DNA from: Thermoplasmatales archaeon BRNA1
GTDB taxonomy: Archaea; Thermoplasmatota; Thermoplasmata; Methanomassiliicoccales; Methanomethylophilaceae
Length of the DNA: 64,000 nucleotides
NCBI GenBank assembly: GCA_000350305.1
Contig: CP002916.1
Span: 930,001-994,000 of the forward strand
Direction of reading: 5' to 3'
The notes under the pieces are model-generated. The model had not been told where the DNA came from. It saw nothing but the letters and a program-made list of their open reading frames with translations, and ran no database searches. The translations under genes were made by a program, and so were the position numbers. The first letter of the stretch is position 1. Each line of letters begins with the position of its first letter. Positions 41,682 through 50,255 of the stretch are shown one piece after another.

Positions 41682-42719
41682 ATGATTTCGGTCGACGGAT
41701 ACGTGTGGGTGGAGGGCGGTTTTATCCGCGGGCATGCGTATTCCGACGGGAGTTCCCTGGAGATATCCGAAGGCCCCCTGGGAGGATCCCCGGATATCAG
41801 AGGCATCATCGTCCCGTCATTTGTCGACTGCCACACGCACTGCGCGGATGCGGGGGCCCGTCCATCACAGGGGATGTCCCTCGAGGAACTGGTCGCTCCT
41901 CCAGACGGACTTAAGCACAGATATTTGAGGGAAACGCCCCGCAGCAAACTTGTGAATGACATGTGCCAGTATGGAAAGGATGCTTTCAGGAACGGCGTAT
42001 CCGCCTTCATCGATTTCCGCGAAGGAGGCGTTGACGGATGCCGGATGCTGAGGGAGTCGGGGGCACAGGCCGCCGTATACGGAAGGCCGTCCTCCGCCGA
42101 AACCGACCCGAACGAGATAAGGGACATCCTGACCGTCGCCGACGGCATAGCGATATCGTCGGTATCCGACATCCCCCGCAGGACGGCTGAGATGATCGCT
42201 GACGTCTGCCGTAAGGAACGCAGACCGTTCGCCCTCCACGCAAGCGAAAGGGTCCGCGAGGACATCGATTTCATCCTGTCCCTGGAGCCCGCCTTCGTCG
42301 TCCACATGACCGAGGCGACCGCTGCTGACATGCGTGCCTGCGCCGAGAACGATGTCCCCATCGTAGCATGCCCCCGCTCCAATGCCTTCTTCGGTAAAAC
42401 GCCGAATCTGGCACTTATGATGGATTCCGGTGCGGAGATCTCATTGGGCACAGACAACGCGATGCTCTGCGACCCGGACATGAGGAAGGAGGCCCTGCTG
42501 GCCTCTGGCATTCTGGGTACCGGAGGCAGAAATGCCTCCGACGTCTGGAACTGTCTCTTCGGGTGTTCGAAGAAGATATTAAATCGCTCGGGAACGTATG
42601 TTACCAAAGTAGCGGAGGGCAGGACGATGGCTGTGCTGCCGTTCGAGGGGAGCGATCCGCTGAGCGCGCTCCGTTCGGATGCGTCCGTGACCCTTTTCCG
42701 CCGAGAGGAATCACCATGA
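41682..42719 (+). CDS. Amidohydrolase-superfamily protein (cytosine deaminase/chlorohydrolase type)
   Basis: 345 residues. Metal-dependent hydrolase fold: VDCHTHCADAG carries the HxH metal pair; ALHASE and FVVHMTEATA supply further His; SLGTDNAM has the catalytic Asp. An ATP-grasp or deaminase partner is not nearby, so the substrate (a deaminated or hydrolysed amine or cyclic amide) cannot be named. A TATA-like TTTTTATAAG lies at 41650-41659. The stop overlaps the UspA start by 4 bp (ATGA). Confidence 0.8.
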   Translation: MISVDGYVWVEGGFIRGHAYSDGSSLEISEGPLGGSPDIRGIIVPSFVDCHTHCADAGARPSQGMSLEELVAPPDGLKHRYLRETPRSKLVNDMCQYGKDAFRNGVSAFIDFREGGVDGCRMLRESGAQAAVYGRPSSAETDPNEIRDILTVADGIAISSVSDIPRRTAEMIADVCRKERRPFALHASERVREDIDFILSLEPAFVVHMTEATAADMRACAENDVPIVACPRSNAFFGKTPNLALMMDSGAEISLGTDNAMLCDPDMRKEALLASGILGTGGRNASDVWNCLFGCSKKILNRSGTYVTKVAEGRTMAVLPFEGSDPLSALRSDASVTLFRREESP

Positions 42720-43165
42720 GTTTCACCAAGATCCTGCTGCCCACCGACGGCCGCGTCTATACCAGTGCGGCGATCGGCAAGGGAATCGAGCTGGCGAAGA
42801 TATCCGGGGGCACAATTACCGCCCTGTACATACTCGACCAGTCCGTCTACTCGAACATGCCGATGGATGCCGCCATCGTCAACGTGTATCAGACCCTCGA
42901 GAAGGAGGGTCACGATGCCATGGACTACGTCAGGAAGAAGGCCGAGGAGGCCGGGGTCCAGTTCGAGGAGAAGATCGTCGAGGGCGTGCCCGCGGCGACC
43001 ATCAACTCCCTGTCCGCCGATTACGACATCGTCGTCATGGGCACCCTCGGCAGGACCGGCGTCAGCAAGGCACTCATGGGCAGCGTGGCGGAGAAGGTCA
43101 TAGAGGGCGCCAAGTGCCCCGTGATGGTCGTGCGCCCCTCCAAGGGAGAGCGAGCCTGCGCATAA
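42716..43165 (+). CDS. Universal stress protein (UspA family)
   Basis: 149 residues, start ATG 42716 overlapping the amidohydrolase stop. UspA fold: FTKILLPTDGR at the start, and the ATP-binding consensus GTLGRTGVSKALMGSVAEKVIEGAKCPVMVV (G-2x-G-9x-G-S type) near the end. A longer internal insertion (VYQTLEKEGHDAMDYVRKKAEEAG) distinguishes it from the next copy. Stress or nucleotide-responsive regulator. Confidence 0.9.
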   Translation: MSFTKILLPTDGRVYTSAAIGKGIELAKISGGTITALYILDQSVYSNMPMDAAIVNVYQTLEKEGHDAMDYVRKKAEEAGVQFEEKIVEGVPAATINSLSADYDIVVMGTLGRTGVSKALMGSVAEKVIEGAKCPVMVVRPSKGERACA

Positions 43166-43209: not shown

Positions 43210-43593
43210 ATGGACTTCCAGAACATCCTAGTTCCGACAGACGGCAGCGACAACACCAGGGCCGCCATCGAGAAGGCGTTCGAACTCGCCAGGATCGCTG
43301 GAGGACGCATAACGGCCCTCTACGTGAAGGACAAGGGTTCCTCGGACGGCACGGCATCCTCTGCCGTGTCCAAGGTCTCTCAGCTCGGGGAGCAGTACGG
43401 CGTCCCCGTCGAGGAGAGGATCGAATCCGGATCGCCCGCCGCCGTCATCGCCGGCATGTCCTCGGAATTCGACGTTATCGTCATGGGCACCCTCGGCAGG
43501 ACCGGTTTCAAGAAGGTCCTCGTCGGAAGCGTGGCCGAAACCGTCGTCAAGAACGCGGTCTGCCCGGTCATCGTGGTGAGAAAGACGGAGTGA
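43210..43593 (+). CDS. Universal stress protein (UspA family), second copy
   Basis: 127 residues: FQNILVPTDGSDNTRAAIEK and GTLGRTGFKKVLVGSVAETVVKNAVCPVIVV. Shorter paralogue of the preceding UspA with the same ATP-binding consensus. A purine-rich stretch (GGGGAAAACAGAAGG) lies upstream. Only 7 nt separate it from the CBS-domain gene that follows. Confidence 0.9.
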   Translation: MDFQNILVPTDGSDNTRAAIEKAFELARIAGGRITALYVKDKGSSDGTASSAVSKVSQLGEQYGVPVEERIESGSPAAVIAGMSSEFDVIVMGTLGRTGFKKVLVGSVAETVVKNAVCPVIVVRKTE

Positions 43594-43600
43594 ATTTAAG

Positions 43601-44446
43601 ATGAAGACTGTAGCAGACATCATGACGCCGGCACCCATCGTTGTTGAGGTGCCCGGCAACCGCAGCGACGCGATCAACCTAATGGTCAGGAACAAGCTCA
43701 CCGGACTCCCGGTGGTCCGCACCTCAGACGGCAAGCTCATGGGAATCGTATCCCGCCGCGACATCTTCCGCAAGTTCGATGAGGAACAGCTCTCCCTCAT
43801 CATGAAGAAGAACTGCGTCACCATCGGCCCCAACGAGCCCATCGAGGAGGCTGCGAGGAGATTCGCCATCAACAGGTTCCACAGACTCCCCGTCGTCGAC
43901 GGAGGGAAGCTCGTCGGGATCATCACTCCCACCGACCTGCTCAAGGAGATCAAGAACATGAAGACCGAGATGACCGCCGAGGACGTCATCTCCACCACCT
44001 GCGTCACCGCCTACGAAGGCGACCCCCTCGCATACATGGTGTCCGCCATGAGGATCAGCGATGTCTCCGCGATGCCCGTCCTGGACTCCAAGGGGGACCT
44101 CAGCGGAATCATCACCGACCGTGACCTGTTCAGCGACCAGCTGAACGATGAGGATGCCGCCCAGAAGCTCGGGATCAACGACCGCGAGCTCGTCGGCCTT
44201 AGGAACGTCCTCCCCCTCTTCTACACCGCAACCGGCAACTACTCCGCCGCGGAGGAGAAGACCGTCAGCGACTACATGGTCAGGTCCCCCACCACCGTCT
44301 TCCGCAAGACCCCCCTCAACGAGGTCGCCCGCATAATGCTCAAGTTCGACTTCGGACAGGTCCCCGTCCACGGAACCAAGGACGAGCTCGTCGGCATGAT
44401 CTACGACGTCGACGTTCTCCGCGCCATGTTCAAGGTGAACGAATGA
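43601..44446 (+). CDS. Four-CBS-domain protein
   Basis: 281 residues, essentially nothing but four CBS motifs (MTPAPIVVEVPG..., CVTIGPNEPIEEAA..., STTCVTAYEGDPLAYM..., MVRSPTTVFRKTPLNEVA...). These proteins bind adenine nucleotides or SAM and act as energy or metabolite sensors. The ATGA overlap with glyS (44443) suggests translational coupling to glycyl-tRNA synthetase. Confidence 0.88.
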   Translation: MKTVADIMTPAPIVVEVPGNRSDAINLMVRNKLTGLPVVRTSDGKLMGIVSRRDIFRKFDEEQLSLIMKKNCVTIGPNEPIEEAARRFAINRFHRLPVVDGGKLVGIITPTDLLKEIKNMKTEMTAEDVISTTCVTAYEGDPLAYMVSAMRISDVSAMPVLDSKGDLSGIITDRDLFSDQLNDEDAAQKLGINDRELVGLRNVLPLFYTATGNYSAAEEKTVSDYMVRSPTTVFRKTPLNEVARIMLKFDFGQVPVHGTKDELVGMIYDVDVLRAMFKVNE

Positions 44447-46155
44447 GCGATTCCAAACTGTCGGACGACATGATGTCCCTGTTCAAGCGCAGGGGCTTCG
44501 TGTGGCCGTCCTACGACATCTACGGCGGCGTGGCCGGCATGTACGACTACGGCCCCCTGGGGTTCAGTCTCAGGAACAACATCGTCGAGATCTGGAGGGA
44601 CCTCTACAAGGGCCGCGAGGGCTTCGTGGAGATAGACTCCGAAACCGTCAACCCCGCCGAGGTCTTCAAGGCCTCCGGACACGTGGAGAAGTTCGCCGAC
44701 AAGATCACCTACTGCACCCAGTGCGGCGCCCCCTGGAGGGCGGACCACCTGGTCAAGGAATTCTACGAGAACCCCGACACCATGACCGAGGCGGAGCTGG
44801 ACCAGGCCTTCGTAGACCACAACATCGTCTGCGCCAGCTGCGGCGGCAAGCTGGGCCCCGTCTCCGACTTCAACCTTATGTTCAAGACCAACATCGGCCC
44901 GGGCTCCGACAGGGTCGGATACATGAGGCCCGAGACCGCCCAGGGAATCTTCGTCAACTTCCTCAACCTCTACCGCTACAACCGCGAGAAACTCCCCATG
45001 GGGGTCATGCAGACCGGCCGCGGATACAGGAACGAGATCGCCCCCAGGCAGGGAATGATCCGCATGAGGGAGTTCAACATGATGGAGGTCGAGCTCTTCG
45101 TCGACCCCGGGGACAAATCCTGGCCCCGCTGGGAGGAGATGAAGGACGAGCCCCTCGTCCTCGTACCCAACACCGGCGAGGGGACCCTGAGGATGACCGT
45201 CGGAGAGGCGGTCGCCAAGAAGGTCATCGCCAACGAGGTCCTGGGATACTTCGTCGGAACCACCAAGCAGCTACTCGTCAGGGCGGGTGTGGACCCCGAG
45301 AGGCTCCGCTTCCGCCAGCACCTGCAGGACGAGATGGCCCACTACGCTAACGACTGCTGGGACGCCGAGGCCCTCCTGTCCATCGGATGGACGGAGATCA
45401 CAGGTATCGCCGACAGGGGCGCATGGGACCTGAGCCGCCACGGACAGTTCTCCGGCACCGACCTCAGCCACTTCAAGAAGTTCGACGAGCCCCGCGAGGA
45501 GGAGGTCGACAGGGTCAAGGCTAACCACAAGCTCCTGGGTCCGACCTTCAAGGGGAAGGCCAAGCAGGTCTCCGAGGCCATCGAGGCATGCAGGCCCGAG
45601 GACATCAGGGACGGGAAGCTCACTATCACCGTCGACGGCGAGCAGATGACCCTGGAGTCGGACATGTTCTCCGTACAGAAGGTCAGGGAGAAGGTCTCCG
45701 GGGAGAGGATCATCCCCAACGTCATCGAGCCCTCTTCCGGACTGGACAGGATCTTCTACACCGTCCTGGAGCACTCCTACTCCCATGACGACAAGGAGGA
45801 CTACACCGTCCTGCACCTGACCCCCGAGGTCGCCCCCATCAAGGTCGGCGTCTTCCCGCTCATGGCCAAGGACGGTCTTGACGACGTCGCCAGGAAGCTC
45901 TGCGACGACATCCACACCCACCGCGCCGAGGCGTACTACGACGAGGCGGGGAACATCGGACGCCGCTACGCGAGGATGGACGAGGCGGGCACCCCCTGGT
46001 GCATCACCGTCGACTACGACACCCTCAGCGGAGACAACAAGGGCACCGTCACCATAAGGGATAGGGACACCAAGGACCAGAAGCGCATCAGGATGGAGGA
46101 TGCACCCAACATCATCTCCGACCTGATCGCCGGAAAGCCCTTCTCCGAGCTCTGA
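44443..46155 (+). CDS. glyS: Glycyl-tRNA synthetase
   Basis: 570 residues, the archaeal/eukaryotic alpha2-type class II GlyRS. It opens with FKRRGFVWPSYDIYGGVAGMYDYGPLG, the family signature. Motif 2 is QTGRGYRNEIAPRQGMIRMREF, with a Cys-rich zinc-like insertion (CTQCGAPWRADH... CASCGG) before it. Motif 3 is SSGLDRIFYTVLEH. The C-terminal anticodon-binding domain (APIKVGVFPLMAKDG... RYARMDEAGTPWCITVDYD) is intact. tRNA-Gly(GCC), its substrate, lies at 54542. Confidence 0.96.
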   Translation: MSDSKLSDDMMSLFKRRGFVWPSYDIYGGVAGMYDYGPLGFSLRNNIVEIWRDLYKGREGFVEIDSETVNPAEVFKASGHVEKFADKITYCTQCGAPWRADHLVKEFYENPDTMTEAELDQAFVDHNIVCASCGGKLGPVSDFNLMFKTNIGPGSDRVGYMRPETAQGIFVNFLNLYRYNREKLPMGVMQTGRGYRNEIAPRQGMIRMREFNMMEVELFVDPGDKSWPRWEEMKDEPLVLVPNTGEGTLRMTVGEAVAKKVIANEVLGYFVGTTKQLLVRAGVDPERLRFRQHLQDEMAHYANDCWDAEALLSIGWTEITGIADRGAWDLSRHGQFSGTDLSHFKKFDEPREEEVDRVKANHKLLGPTFKGKAKQVSEAIEACRPEDIRDGKLTITVDGEQMTLESDMFSVQKVREKVSGERIIPNVIEPSSGLDRIFYTVLEHSYSHDDKEDYTVLHLTPEVAPIKVGVFPLMAKDGLDDVARKLCDDIHTHRAEAYYDEAGNIGRRYARMDEAGTPWCITVDYDTLSGDNKGTVTIRDRDTKDQKRIRMEDAPNIISDLIAGKPFSEL

Positions 46156-46198: not shown

Positions 46199-46310
46199 GA
46201 CCTCTCACCCCTTTTCCCCGTCTGGAACATTCCCGGAAAACCCGGAATCGAACAAGTTGCGACTAACATTTATATTGACTCCAATCGATTTGTAATATCG
46301 GTGAGTAAGA

Positions 46311-47486
46311 TTGGGAATTAAGGACCTTGAAGACCTGAAGAAGCTTTCTATGCTGAAGTCGCAGATCGATGCCGTCTCCGTCGGGGACATCATCGTGAAG
46401 GACTTCCCGTCGCTCAACCCTGAGGACACGGTGTCCGACAGCCTCGCGCTGATGCGCCGCACCGGTTTCCAGGAGATACCCGTAGCAAAGGATGGAGAAT
46501 ACATTGGAATGATGCGCTACGGCACCATTCTCAGAAAGAAGAGCGCCACGCCCGACACCAAGATCAAGACCTTGGTATCGAGCCTGCCCACCATCGACGA
46601 AGAGACCGAGATCACCAAGATCGCGGAACTGATGGTCACCAACAACTGCAGGCAGCTGGCGGTGCTCACCGGCAAGAAGGTCACCGGGATCGTTTCCAGG
46701 ACCGCTCTGATCCAGATCGCAGCCGAGATGAAGTCTCTCAAGAACATCAAGGTCTGGGAGATCATGACCACCCCCGTCGTCTACGTGAACGACAACGACA
46801 TGCTGGCGGTGGCCGTGGACAAGATGAGGGACCTAGACATCCGTACCCTCCCCGTGGTCGACAGCGCCGGCAAGCTGAACGGCGTGGTCGGAATGAAGGA
46901 GGTCATCGACAACGGATGGAAGGCCGGAGAGAAGTCCATCGGTGCGCTTTCCAAGGCACCTAGCAGCCAGATCCCCGTATCCAGCGTCTCCGTCACCTCG
47001 GTTCTCACCATCAACTGGGAGGACAGCATGGAGGCAGCGTCCGACATCATGTCGAGCAAGAAGATCTCCACGCTGCCCGTCCTCGACGACGGCGAACTGG
47101 TGGGAGTCCTCACCGAGTACGACATAATCGAGCTCATGAGCTCCTGCCGCGAGAGGGACCAGCTGTACGTCCAGATCTCCGGACTGGAGGATGACGACAA
47201 GATTTACGCGGATGCCATGTACGACGACATCGCCAACGAGATGAGCAAGATCGCGAAGATCTACAGGCCCGAGTCCCTGACCATCCACGTGACCCGCTAC
47301 AACGAGGGAGGCGACAAGAAGAAGTACAGCCTCATCGGGAAGCTGTTCGTGGACGGACGCGTCGTGAACGCGAAGGTCGTCGGATGGGACCTCGTGCAGA
47401 CCAACAACGACCTCATCAAGAAGATCGGTTACGAAGTGAAGGATATCAAGGACTCCAACGTCACCTTCAGGAAGAGGAAGAAGTGA
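46311..47486 (+). CDS. Four-CBS protein with C-terminal HPF/S30AE-like domain
   Basis: 391 residues. Four CBS motifs occupy residues 20-280 (VKDFPSLNPEDTVSDSLA..., SSLPTIDEETEITKIA..., MTTPVVYVNDNDMLAV..., VTSVLTINWEDSMEAA...). The last 105 residues change character: a strand LYVQISGL, a helix YADAMYDDIANEMSKIAKI, three strands (LTIHVTRY, KYSLIGKLFVDG, VVNAKVVGWD) and a helix QTNNDLIKKIGYEV. This beta-alpha-beta-beta-beta-alpha order matches ribosome-hibernation factors. Start is TTG 46311; the upstream frame is closed. It sits between glyS and valS. Confidence 0.75.
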   Translation: MGIKDLEDLKKLSMLKSQIDAVSVGDIIVKDFPSLNPEDTVSDSLALMRRTGFQEIPVAKDGEYIGMMRYGTILRKKSATPDTKIKTLVSSLPTIDEETEITKIAELMVTNNCRQLAVLTGKKVTGIVSRTALIQIAAEMKSLKNIKVWEIMTTPVVYVNDNDMLAVAVDKMRDLDIRTLPVVDSAGKLNGVVGMKEVIDNGWKAGEKSIGALSKAPSSQIPVSSVSVTSVLTINWEDSMEAASDIMSSKKISTLPVLDDGELVGVLTEYDIIELMSSCRERDQLYVQISGLEDDDKIYADAMYDDIANEMSKIAKIYRPESLTIHVTRYNEGGDKKKYSLIGKLFVDGRVVNAKVVGWDLVQTNNDLIKKIGYEVKDIKDSNVTFRKRKK

Positions 47487-47633: not shown

Positions 47634-50255
47634 ATGGCCTACGATTCATCTTCAATCGAGAAAAAGTGGGAGGACATGTGGAGGGAGGAGAAGGTCTACC
47701 GCTTCGACCCCAAGTCCGACAAGCCCATCTACAGCATCGACAACCCTCCGAGATACACCTCCGGTTCCCTGCACCTGGGACACGCTACCGGATACTCGCT
47801 CATCGACTTCGCCGCAAGGTACCACCGCATGAAGGGGAACAACGTCTTCTTCCCCCTCTGCTTCGACGTCAACGGTACCCCCATCGAGGTCCGCGTCGAG
47901 AAAAAGTTCGGCATCAACAAGCTCGACACCCCCCGCGAGGAGTACCGCAAGCTCTGCAGCGACTACGCCAACGGATTCATCAAGGAGATGACCCATGACT
48001 TCGAGATCCTCGGAGAGTCCATGGACCCCTCCATCTACTACCAGACCGACGCCCCCTACTACAGGAGCATCACCCAGCTGTCCTTCGTGAAGCTGTTCAA
48101 CCGCGGCCTGGTCTACAAGGCGAACTTCCCAGTCAACTGGTGCCCCCACTGCATGACCGCCCTCGCCGATGCCGAGGTCGAGTACAAGGACAACGTCAAC
48201 AAGCTCAACTACCTCAAATTCCAGATCGCCGGCGAGGACGGCTACGTCATGGTGGCCACCACCCGCCCCGAACTACTATGCACCTGCAAGGTCGTCGCCG
48301 TCCACCCCGACGACAAGGAGAAGGCGCACCTTGTCGGCAAGGAGCTCATCACCCCCATCTACGGCAGGCACGTCAAGATCATCGCCGACCCCAAGGTCGA
48401 GAAGGACTACGGTACCGGAAACGTCATGATCTGCACCATCGGGGACAAGAGCGACCTAGAGTGGATCATGAAGTACCACCTGGAGCTCGAGAAGGGGATC
48501 GACGAGACCGGATGCATGACCGAACTCGCAGGCAAGTACGCCGGCATGCCCGTCGCGGAGGCGCGCGCGCAGGCGATCGAGGACCTTAAGGCCATGGGCG
48601 TCCTCGACCACCAGGAAGACAACCCCCAGCAGGTTTCCGTCTGCTGGAGATGCAAAGCACCCATCGAGTACCTCCAGGTCCCCCAGTGGTTCCTCAAGAC
48701 CACCACATTCCGCGACGCTATCCTGAAGCGCGCGGACGAGATCAACTGGTTCCCTGAGTTCATGAAGATCCGTCTCCAGGACTGGACCAAATCCCTGGAG
48801 TGGGACTGGGTCCTCTCCAGGCAGAGGATCTTCGCCACCCCCATCCCCGTGTGGGAGTGCAAGAAGTGCGGACACGCCGTCTGCGCCACCGAGGCACAGG
48901 CCAGGGCATACGTGGACCCCACACTCGACGCTGCACCGGTGGACAAGTGCCCCGAGTGCGGCGGGGAGCTCGAGGGGTGCACCGACGTTTTCGACACCTG
49001 GATGGACTCCTCCGGATCCTCCCTCTACAACTGCTTCTGGGAGCGCGACGAGGAGATGTTCAGGAAGATGTACCCCATGTCCCTGAGGCCCCAGTCCCAC
49101 GACATCATCAGGAGCTGGGCGTTCTACTCCATCCTCAGGGCGGAGCAGATTGCGGACTCCCGTCCCTGGGACAACATCATGATCCACGGATTCATCATGG
49201 CCCCCGACGGGACCCCCATGCACACCTCCGCCGGAAACGTCATCGACCCTATCCCGATCCTCGAGAAATACGGTGCGGATGCCCTCAGGTACTACGCTGC
49301 ATCCTGCTCCCTCGGGACCGATCACGCCTTCCGCGAGGAGACCGTGGTCCGCGGAAAGAAGATCTGCATCAAGGTCTACAACCTCGGACAGTTCGTGTCC
49401 AGGTATTTCGAGGGCCTGAAGGCGGCACCCGCTCAGCCCAAGGACCTCAGGACCGCCGACAGGTGGATCCTCGGACGCCTCTGGAAGACCGTCAGGTCCG
49501 TCACCGAGAGCATCGAGGTCTACCAGTTCGACAAGGCCATGAAGTCCGTCGAGGACTTCATCTGGCACGTCTTCGCGGACGACTACGTCGAGATGGTCAA
49601 GGGAAGGGATGACGACGCGGTGAAGTACACCCTGTACACCGTCTTCCTCAACGCCGTCAAGATCCTCGCCCCGTTCATGCCCCACATCACCGAGGAGGTC
49701 TACCAGACCCACTTCCGCCAGTTCGACGGATGCAGGTCGGTCCACCTCACCGAGTGGCCCGTTCCCGGAGAGATCGACTGTGACGCCGTGAAGGCCGGAG
49801 ACGCTGCGGCCGAGATCATCGCCACCGTACGCGCATGGAAGGCCGAGCAGAAGCTCAACATCAACGCCGACATCGAGAAACTCGAGGTCATCGGGGGCGA
49901 CTCAGACCTGTTCAAGAAGTCCGAGGAGGACATCAGGCAGGGAGTCAGGGCAAAGACGGTCGTCATCGCGGCCAAAGCAGACCTGACAGAGAAGGTCGAG
50001 GCCGTCAAACCCGTCTACGGCAAGCTCGGACCCGCCTTCAAGGCACAGGCAAAGGCCGTCGTCGCTGCGCTCAATGCAGCCGACCCCGAGGATATCGCGT
50101 CCCAGATCGCCGGCGGAAAGGTCGTCCTCGACATCGAGGGCGGAAAGGTCGAGCTCGGACCTGAGTTCTTCGAGATCAGGAAGAGCCTGACCCTCGAGGG
50201 AAGGGAGGTCGCCACCGTTCAGTGCGGCGATGCCCTTCTCGCCATTCAGCAGTAA
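47634..50255 (+). CDS. valS: Valyl-tRNA synthetase
   Basis: 873 residues, class I synthetase. HIGH motif is SGSLHLGHATG at about residue 45. The editing domain follows (VMVATTRPELLCTCKVVAVHPDD). There are two zinc-like knots (CKKCGHAVC, CPECGGELEGC). The catalytic end is WALKMIHGF-like MIHGFIMAPDGTPMHTSAGNVIDPIPIL, where the KMSKS loop reads PMHTSAG: both lysines are replaced. The anticodon domain (RTADRWILGRLWKTVRSVTE) and the C-terminal tail are intact. A TATA-like CTTTTATAA at 47602-47610 gives a short leader. Confidence 0.93.
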   Translation: MAYDSSSIEKKWEDMWREEKVYRFDPKSDKPIYSIDNPPRYTSGSLHLGHATGYSLIDFAARYHRMKGNNVFFPLCFDVNGTPIEVRVEKKFGINKLDTPREEYRKLCSDYANGFIKEMTHDFEILGESMDPSIYYQTDAPYYRSITQLSFVKLFNRGLVYKANFPVNWCPHCMTALADAEVEYKDNVNKLNYLKFQIAGEDGYVMVATTRPELLCTCKVVAVHPDDKEKAHLVGKELITPIYGRHVKIIADPKVEKDYGTGNVMICTIGDKSDLEWIMKYHLELEKGIDETGCMTELAGKYAGMPVAEARAQAIEDLKAMGVLDHQEDNPQQVSVCWRCKAPIEYLQVPQWFLKTTTFRDAILKRADEINWFPEFMKIRLQDWTKSLEWDWVLSRQRIFATPIPVWECKKCGHAVCATEAQARAYVDPTLDAAPVDKCPECGGELEGCTDVFDTWMDSSGSSLYNCFWERDEEMFRKMYPMSLRPQSHDIIRSWAFYSILRAEQIADSRPWDNIMIHGFIMAPDGTPMHTSAGNVIDPIPILEKYGADALRYYAASCSLGTDHAFREETVVRGKKICIKVYNLGQFVSRYFEGLKAAPAQPKDLRTADRWILGRLWKTVRSVTESIEVYQFDKAMKSVEDFIWHVFADDYVEMVKGRDDDAVKYTLYTVFLNAVKILAPFMPHITEEVYQTHFRQFDGCRSVHLTEWPVPGEIDCDAVKAGDAAAEIIATVRAWKAEQKLNINADIEKLEVIGGDSDLFKKSEEDIRQGVRAKTVVIAAKADLTEKVEAVKPVYGKLGPAFKAQAKAVVAALNAADPEDIASQIAGGKVVLDIEGGKVELGPEFFEIRKSLTLEGREVATVQCGDALLAIQQ

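Follow-up and report, generated by a model that had tools for sequence, protein, structure and literature searches.

A probable hibA gene in a conserved tRNA synthetase neighbourhood of Methanomassiliicoccales

The gene located between glyS and valS in the genome of a Methanomethylophilaceae archaeon (Methanomassiliicoccales) encodes a protein with four CBS stretches followed by a separate C-terminal domain. The locus raises the question of whether this protein is a ribosome hibernation factor and whether its position beside two tRNA synthetase genes is conserved. The window analyzed here comprises 64,000 nucleotides (bases 930001–994000 of a single-contig genome of 1,461,105 bases). An earlier note, made from the sequence of the window, had proposed a reading frame for a CBS sensor fused to a hibernation-factor-like domain, flanked by glyS and valS and close to two UspA genes. 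The reading frame (391 aa, stop codon at 47484–47486), both synthetase genes, and two upstream universal stress protein genes were all recovered (Table 1). The TTG start of the gene is supported by the alignments of its relatives, which begin at the same residue. In the family (35 loci), the codon at this position was ATG in 15, TTG in 13, GTG in 5, and ATA in 2. The two ATA rows show just that translation starts elsewhere than at the aligned first residue in these loci. Most of the 35 loci display a similar GGTG 5' of the gene, as judged by eye and without a tally.

Table 1. Features of the window around hibA.
Feature	Coordinates	Strand	Basis
Amidohydrolase, upstream end of the conserved cluster	41682..42719	+	PF01979 E 7.2e-9; NF005552 E 6.7e-52, below cut-off
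Universal stress protein 1, start within the end of the amidohydrolase gene	42716..43165	+	PF00582 E 1.7e-26; start read from sequence
Universal stress protein 2	43210..43593	+	PF00582 E 5.4e-27
Stand-alone four-CBS module, 281 aa, HhpR-like; 4-base overlap with glyS	43601..44446	+	NF053603, PDB match
glyS, glycine--tRNA ligase, 155 bases 5' of hibA	44443..46155	+	TIGR00389 E 8.8e-197
TATA-like box TTTATAT, 42 bases 5' of the hibA start codon	46269..46275	+	Sequence
GGTGA, Shine-Dalgarno-like, directly 5' of the TTG start	46300..46304	+	Read from sequence
Probable hibA, four-CBS module and HPF/RaiA-like domain, 391 aa, TTG start	46311..47486	+	ORF; match over almost the whole length to chain 9sr9_H, P. 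abyssi HibA
CBS module, residues 22–281, four CBS in two pairs (limits set by us)	46374..47153	+	PF00571, fold
Equivalent of the PTC loop of HibA by alignment, residues 206–220	46926..46970	+	Alignment; loop position as described in PMC13324472
CBS4 nucleotide motif G265-V-L-T268-E-Y-D271	47103..47123	+	45-member alignment
HPF/RaiA-like domain, residues 283–391, basic tail at end	47157..47483	+	Predicted structure, fold searches, tail charge
valS, valine--tRNA ligase, next gene 3'	47634..50255	+	NF009687 E 7.1e-277

Homology to HibA and predicted fold

Searched against the PDB, the full-length protein matched chain 9sr9_H best (E 1.4e-21 with the single sequence, residues 24–375). A profile of 22 sequences retrieved the same chain as the best match (E 1.8e-52), positions 22–390 being aligned with positions 4–380 of the chain, so that both the CBS and C-terminal parts were covered. 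This chain of 392 residues was solved on the P. abyssi ribosome and is called just 'Dehydrogenase' in the file; its entry code occurs in the paper describing HibA (PMC13324472). As described there, HibA combines a module of four CBS domains with an HPF/RaiA domain and is found on the ribosomes of stressed P. abyssi, where the C-terminal domain occupies the mRNA channel of the 30S subunit and the CBS module touches the 50S subunit at three places (PMC13324472). The same paper reports that HibA inhibits translation in extracts, that T. barophilus deleted for hibA has a lag of 4 h instead of 2 h and about 60% fewer 70S ribosomes in stationary phase, and that HibA occurs in 47% of archaeal genomes (PMC13324472). 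The earlier interpretation of the locus is supported, and the idea on which it had drawn, of a CBS protein acting as an archaeal ribosome hibernation factor, holds for a characterized homologue of the window protein. Based on homology, predicted fold, and analogy with the published factor, the gene is very probably the hibA gene of this archaeon, with a ribosome role like that of HibA. Its product would then block translation on the idle ribosome and hold the 70S particle together, which may allow the particle to survive and to restart fast.

The C-terminal domain was difficult to recognize from the window sequence. The last 105 residues matched no Pfam family, and single-sequence searches of Pfam, NCBIfam, and the PDB returned nothing useful, the best PDB match of the domain being an unrelated inhibitor (E 0.45). 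PF02482 matched neither the window domain nor anything else in the genome. At E <= 1, this model detected 15 of the 31 aligned C-terminal domains, the best at 6.9e-7. When these 31 domains were searched as a profile, the HPF chain 8rd8_D came first in the PDB (E 9.4e-4), followed by unrelated VPS4B chains at 0.025, above HibA 9sr9_H at 0.24.

Structure prediction was more informative. The AlphaFold2 model of the window protein, computed with 44 relatives (mean pLDDT 84.4, pTM 0.67), displays in its C-terminal part a strand (286–290), a helix (294–315), three strands (320–330, 338–347, and 350–358), and a second helix (361–390). This is the beta-alpha-beta-beta-beta-alpha order of S30AE/HPF domains that the earlier note had read in the last 105 residues. 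That note had also proposed a comparison of the predicted structure with S30AE. Within the whole model, residues 285–386 matched E. coli HPF 6h4n_x (Z 13.4, rmsd 2.1, 94 aligned residues) and residues 283–391 matched the chloroplast small-subunit factor 5mmj_y (Z 13.1, rmsd 2.8, 107 aligned residues). Since the CBS module filled the Foldseek list of the whole model with CBS proteins only, the domain was also predicted and searched alone (109 residues, 31 sequences, pLDDT 87.5, pTM 0.77). Foldseek returned 25 matches at E <= 0.001, each of them an HPF/RaiA/pY chain. Ranks 1 to 33 of VIA-align were all hibernation-factor chains (Z 13.4 to 8.7), the first unrelated chain appearing at Z 8.3. P. 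abyssi HibA 9sr9 was absent among the fold-search matches listed, the structure set ending on 8 April 2026. The comparison thus returned an HPF-like fold and not a confident structure of another type. As modeled, the C-terminal domain of the window protein is S30AE/HPF-like, and sequence matches extend this assignment to its relatives.

Conservation of the domain was assessed in the order. K338 and Y339 were present in 49 of 49 tabulated main-copy HibA proteins, and position 359 was Trp in 45 and Tyr in 4. G334, K338, and S340 are near-invariant across Methanomassiliicoccales and differ in P. abyssi HibA. In comparison to the latter protein, the loop at the place of the second archaeal insertion of the domain comprises 11 rather than 12 residues, and the region of the first is about two residues shorter according to our reading of the alignment; both would be candidate equivalents of the insertions of HibA. 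The last 14 residues are basic, with a net charge of at least +3, in 59 of 66 proteins. The C-terminus of HibA sits at the mRNA exit channel in the published complex (PMC13324472), and it is therefore plausible, by analogy, that the basic tail of the window protein contacts rRNA at this site.

The N-terminal part contains four PF00571 stretches (E 1.7e-39), and its fold matches that of the archaeal four-CBS proteins SriA/B/C/D, Dri, and MJ1225 and that of AMPK gamma. The G-x-x-T/S-x-x-D motif of CBS4 was found in 45 of 45 aligned proteins (Thr in 43, Ser in 2, and D271 in all 45). The CBS3 equivalent of the Thr/Ser position was Gly in 44 of them. In P. abyssi HibA, the nucleotide site is located at the CBS3/CBS4 interface (PMC13324472). 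Since the CBS4 motif is kept, we infer that adenylate binding is also kept, through CBS4, and the CBS3/CBS4 pair of the window protein probably binds AMP or another adenylate, the Thr/Ser-x-x-Asp motif of CBS4 holding the ribose. As reported, P. abyssi HibA binds AMP, ADP, and ATP, and its isolated CBS module binds AMP best, with a Kd of 12 µM; neither AMP nor ATP clearly changed the binding of HibA to ribosomes (PMC13324472). The proposal of a 'nucleotide-sensing brake' on translation is thus supported in part, by the nucleotide binding of the published factor and not clearly by an effect of AMP or ATP on ribosome binding.

The stretch equivalent to the PTC loop, in the second CBS pair, is present in the window protein. 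It comprises 15 residues, versus 18 in P. abyssi (190–207), and is modeled with low confidence by AlphaFold2 (pLDDT 62–66). The span from G191 to S225 comprises 35 residues, versus 38 in P. abyssi HibA, and ranges from 31 to 39 among 66 proteins.

Conserved gene order, duplicates, and absences

Gene neighbourhoods were compared in 40 genomes that all contained a hibA match, of which 37 belonged to the order (a chosen sample out of 60 relatives) and three to more distant Thermoplasmatota. In all 37 loci of the order, hibA lies downstream from, and in the same orientation as, the amidohydrolase gene, the gene for the CBS protein of 281 residues, and glyS. A uspA gene was seen in 35 of these loci, and valS was the next gene after hibA in 34. 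A count under strict spacing gave 35 for glyS, 34 for the CBS gene, and 32 for valS out of 37, instead of 37, 37, and 34 by listing, partly because the mechanically called ORFs were over-long. The outer flanks are less stable, the genes for a DEAD-box helicase and a thioredoxin reductase being absent or inverted in many loci of the order. The cluster was absent from all three of the more distant Thermoplasmatota loci, where hibA is present without linkage to glyS. The tRNA synthetase neighbourhood of hibA is therefore real and conserved in the order. Neither synthetases, UspA, nor operons are mentioned in the main text of the HibA paper (PMC13324472).

In the window, the start of the first universal stress protein gene overlaps the stop codon of the amidohydrolase gene by 4 bases (42716–42719), and the cluster upstream from glyS therefore looks like an operon at the sequence level. 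For hibA itself, a TATA-like hexamer was found between –65 and –25 in 26 of the 35 loci of the family (there –37 to –44 from the start), versus 5 of 35 for a comparison stretch of equal width (–160 to –120). In the family of the window, hibA therefore probably has its own promoter, as judged from these hexamers, despite travelling with glyS. In another family, five loci (L167, L171, L174, L177, and L182) have a gap of just 22–35 bases between glyS and hibA.

The stand-alone CBS protein encoded upstream from glyS matches the HhpR model NF053603 over residues 4–278 (E 1e-38) with 133 bits, far below the cut-off of 520. Its best PDB match is 2yzq, PH1780 (E 6.8e-30). By our reading, a full-length match below the cut-off to the HhpR model occurs in 19 of 21 genomes and fragments alone in the other two. 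HhpR is described as a transcription regulator of the CM-3 family (PMC13324472).

Scanning of genomes with a single-protein query confirmed 0 of 20 stretches, and an alignment query kept 80 loci. According to our reading of a table of matches, 56 of 61 genomes of the same genus, family, and order contain a strong hibA match. The five others are G009, G052, G054, G010, and G014. Absence of hibA cannot be judged in four of these because the contig ends at the glyS piece (G009 and G052), no glyS was found (G054), or a glyS piece is all there is (G010). In G014 (locus L193), 475 bases separate glyS from valS and hibA is absent from this interval; the family of this genome otherwise keeps the gene.

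Duplications were also found. Tandem hibA pairs occur in six of the 37 loci of the order (L166, L173, L175, L178, L179, and L183), all in one family. In the same family, a tandem second copy was also seen at L123, L126, L135, L138, and L139. The branch of P. abyssi HibA is very long (2.75) in a tree of 77 rows. This tree unites all second copies (eight rows) in a single clade (support 100/99) beside the first copies. The tandem duplication is therefore old, and both copies have been kept. The four second copies that were tabulated retain all of the tabulated residues. Genome G033 contains two extra, fast-evolving copies side by side and away from glyS (L049:3424-4590 and L049:4732-5994), in which K338, Y339, and W359 are lost. 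A homologue of SBDS is encoded elsewhere in the genome of the window (G000:C1:292679-292939, minus strand); aSBDS accompanied HibA on idle P. abyssi ribosomes. The window protein had no match in a phage collection.

It is conceivable, although in our estimation rather unlikely, that the HhpR-like CBS module, the universal stress protein, GlyRS, and HibA constitute one dedicated unit in Methanomassiliicoccales. As adenylate sensors, a transcription regulator and a ribosome brake would then jointly tune tRNA charging and ribosome parking to the energy state, and in the family with tandem hibA copies the paralogs would have split the roles of the brake.

Other readings of the protein and significance

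The protein might instead be one of the other archaeal CBS ribosome factors, such as Dri or a stand-alone CBS module of the SriA–SriD type, to which an unrelated C-terminal domain has been added. Structural matches of the CBS part to SriA/B (9znf_4, E 4.3e-20) and Dri (9e6q_3, E 1.1e-17) agree with this reading. However, these matches are confined to the CBS part. The fold of the C-terminal domain resembles that of HPF, and the best sequence match, over both parts, is to HibA. In addition, Dri as described has two CBS modules and no HPF domain (PMC13324472). The single CBS module of the window protein, the fold of its C-terminal domain, and the match to HibA led us to reject an assignment to the Dri type, and we regard this reading as exceedingly improbable. 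A chance resemblance, the protein being a CBS protein with an unrelated alpha/beta domain at its C-terminus, would account for the failure of the single sequence of the window domain to retrieve a significant match. It would not account for the profile match to 9sr9_H, for the HPF folds retrieved by Foldseek and VIA-align, or for the detection of PF02482 in about half of the relatives. Chance was rejected for practical purposes, based on the 9sr9_H profile match and the HPF/RaiA/pY matches of Foldseek, and retains next to no probability.

A protein with the architecture of HibA might also do another job: it might sense adenylates and regulate the neighbouring tRNA synthetases or DNA-bound machinery, its RNA-binding domain having lost the ability to bind ribosomes. 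The order-wide linkage to glyS would fit such a role, as would the reported association of P. abyssi HibA in pull-downs with proteins of replication and recombination (PMC13324472). Against this, the HPF-like domain has its full secondary-structure plan and strongly conserved residues at positions 338, 339, and 359, and the three distant Thermoplasmatota loci keep hibA away from glyS. We consider this alternative very unlikely and retain the assignment to HibA.

The HibA family has already been described (in print, April 2026), and what is new here is the evidence at the level of the lineage together with the conserved cluster. Methanomassiliicoccales are not named in the main text of the HibA paper (PMC13324472), and a literature search combining this order with ribosome hibernation found no paper. 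Sequence, fold, and gene order extend this recently described family of archaeal hibernation factors to an order of methanogens from the gut and rumen. The stable cluster may reveal how hibA is controlled, and the tandem duplicates and the one natural absence provide further entry points. The constant position of the gene next to glyS and to another sensor gene offers a minor new lead, and the overall significance is modest.

Comparison with known systems

The four-CBS module fold is common to the window protein, to Dri of Pyrobaculum, and to SriA–SriD of Methanosarcina, names taken for the latter from PDB titles (a literature search for SriA found no paper). Unlike the window protein, Dri and SriA–SriD have no described HPF domain, and Dri contains two CBS modules (PMC13324472) where the window protein has one module of four CBS stretches. 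The HhpR-like neighbour is likewise a four-CBS protein, as is HibA, but is devoid of the C-terminal domain. The bacterial and chloroplast factors HPF, RaiA, and pY (PF02482, PSRP1) share the C-terminal fold (Z 13.4 to 5mmj_y for the domain alone) but lack the CBS module, and the window domain falls outside recognition by PF02482. The same order of four CBS followed by an HPF/RaiA-like domain is found in HibA of P. abyssi (Q9UYR4; PDB 9sr9-9srf and 9t7h) and of T. barophilus (F0LKU5). In comparison to P. abyssi HibA, the window protein is distant in sequence, has a shorter equivalent of the PTC loop, and displays the order-specific KYS and G334. The two proteins nevertheless are similar in length (391 versus 392 residues), are homologous over both parts, and have the Thr and Asp of CBS4 in common.
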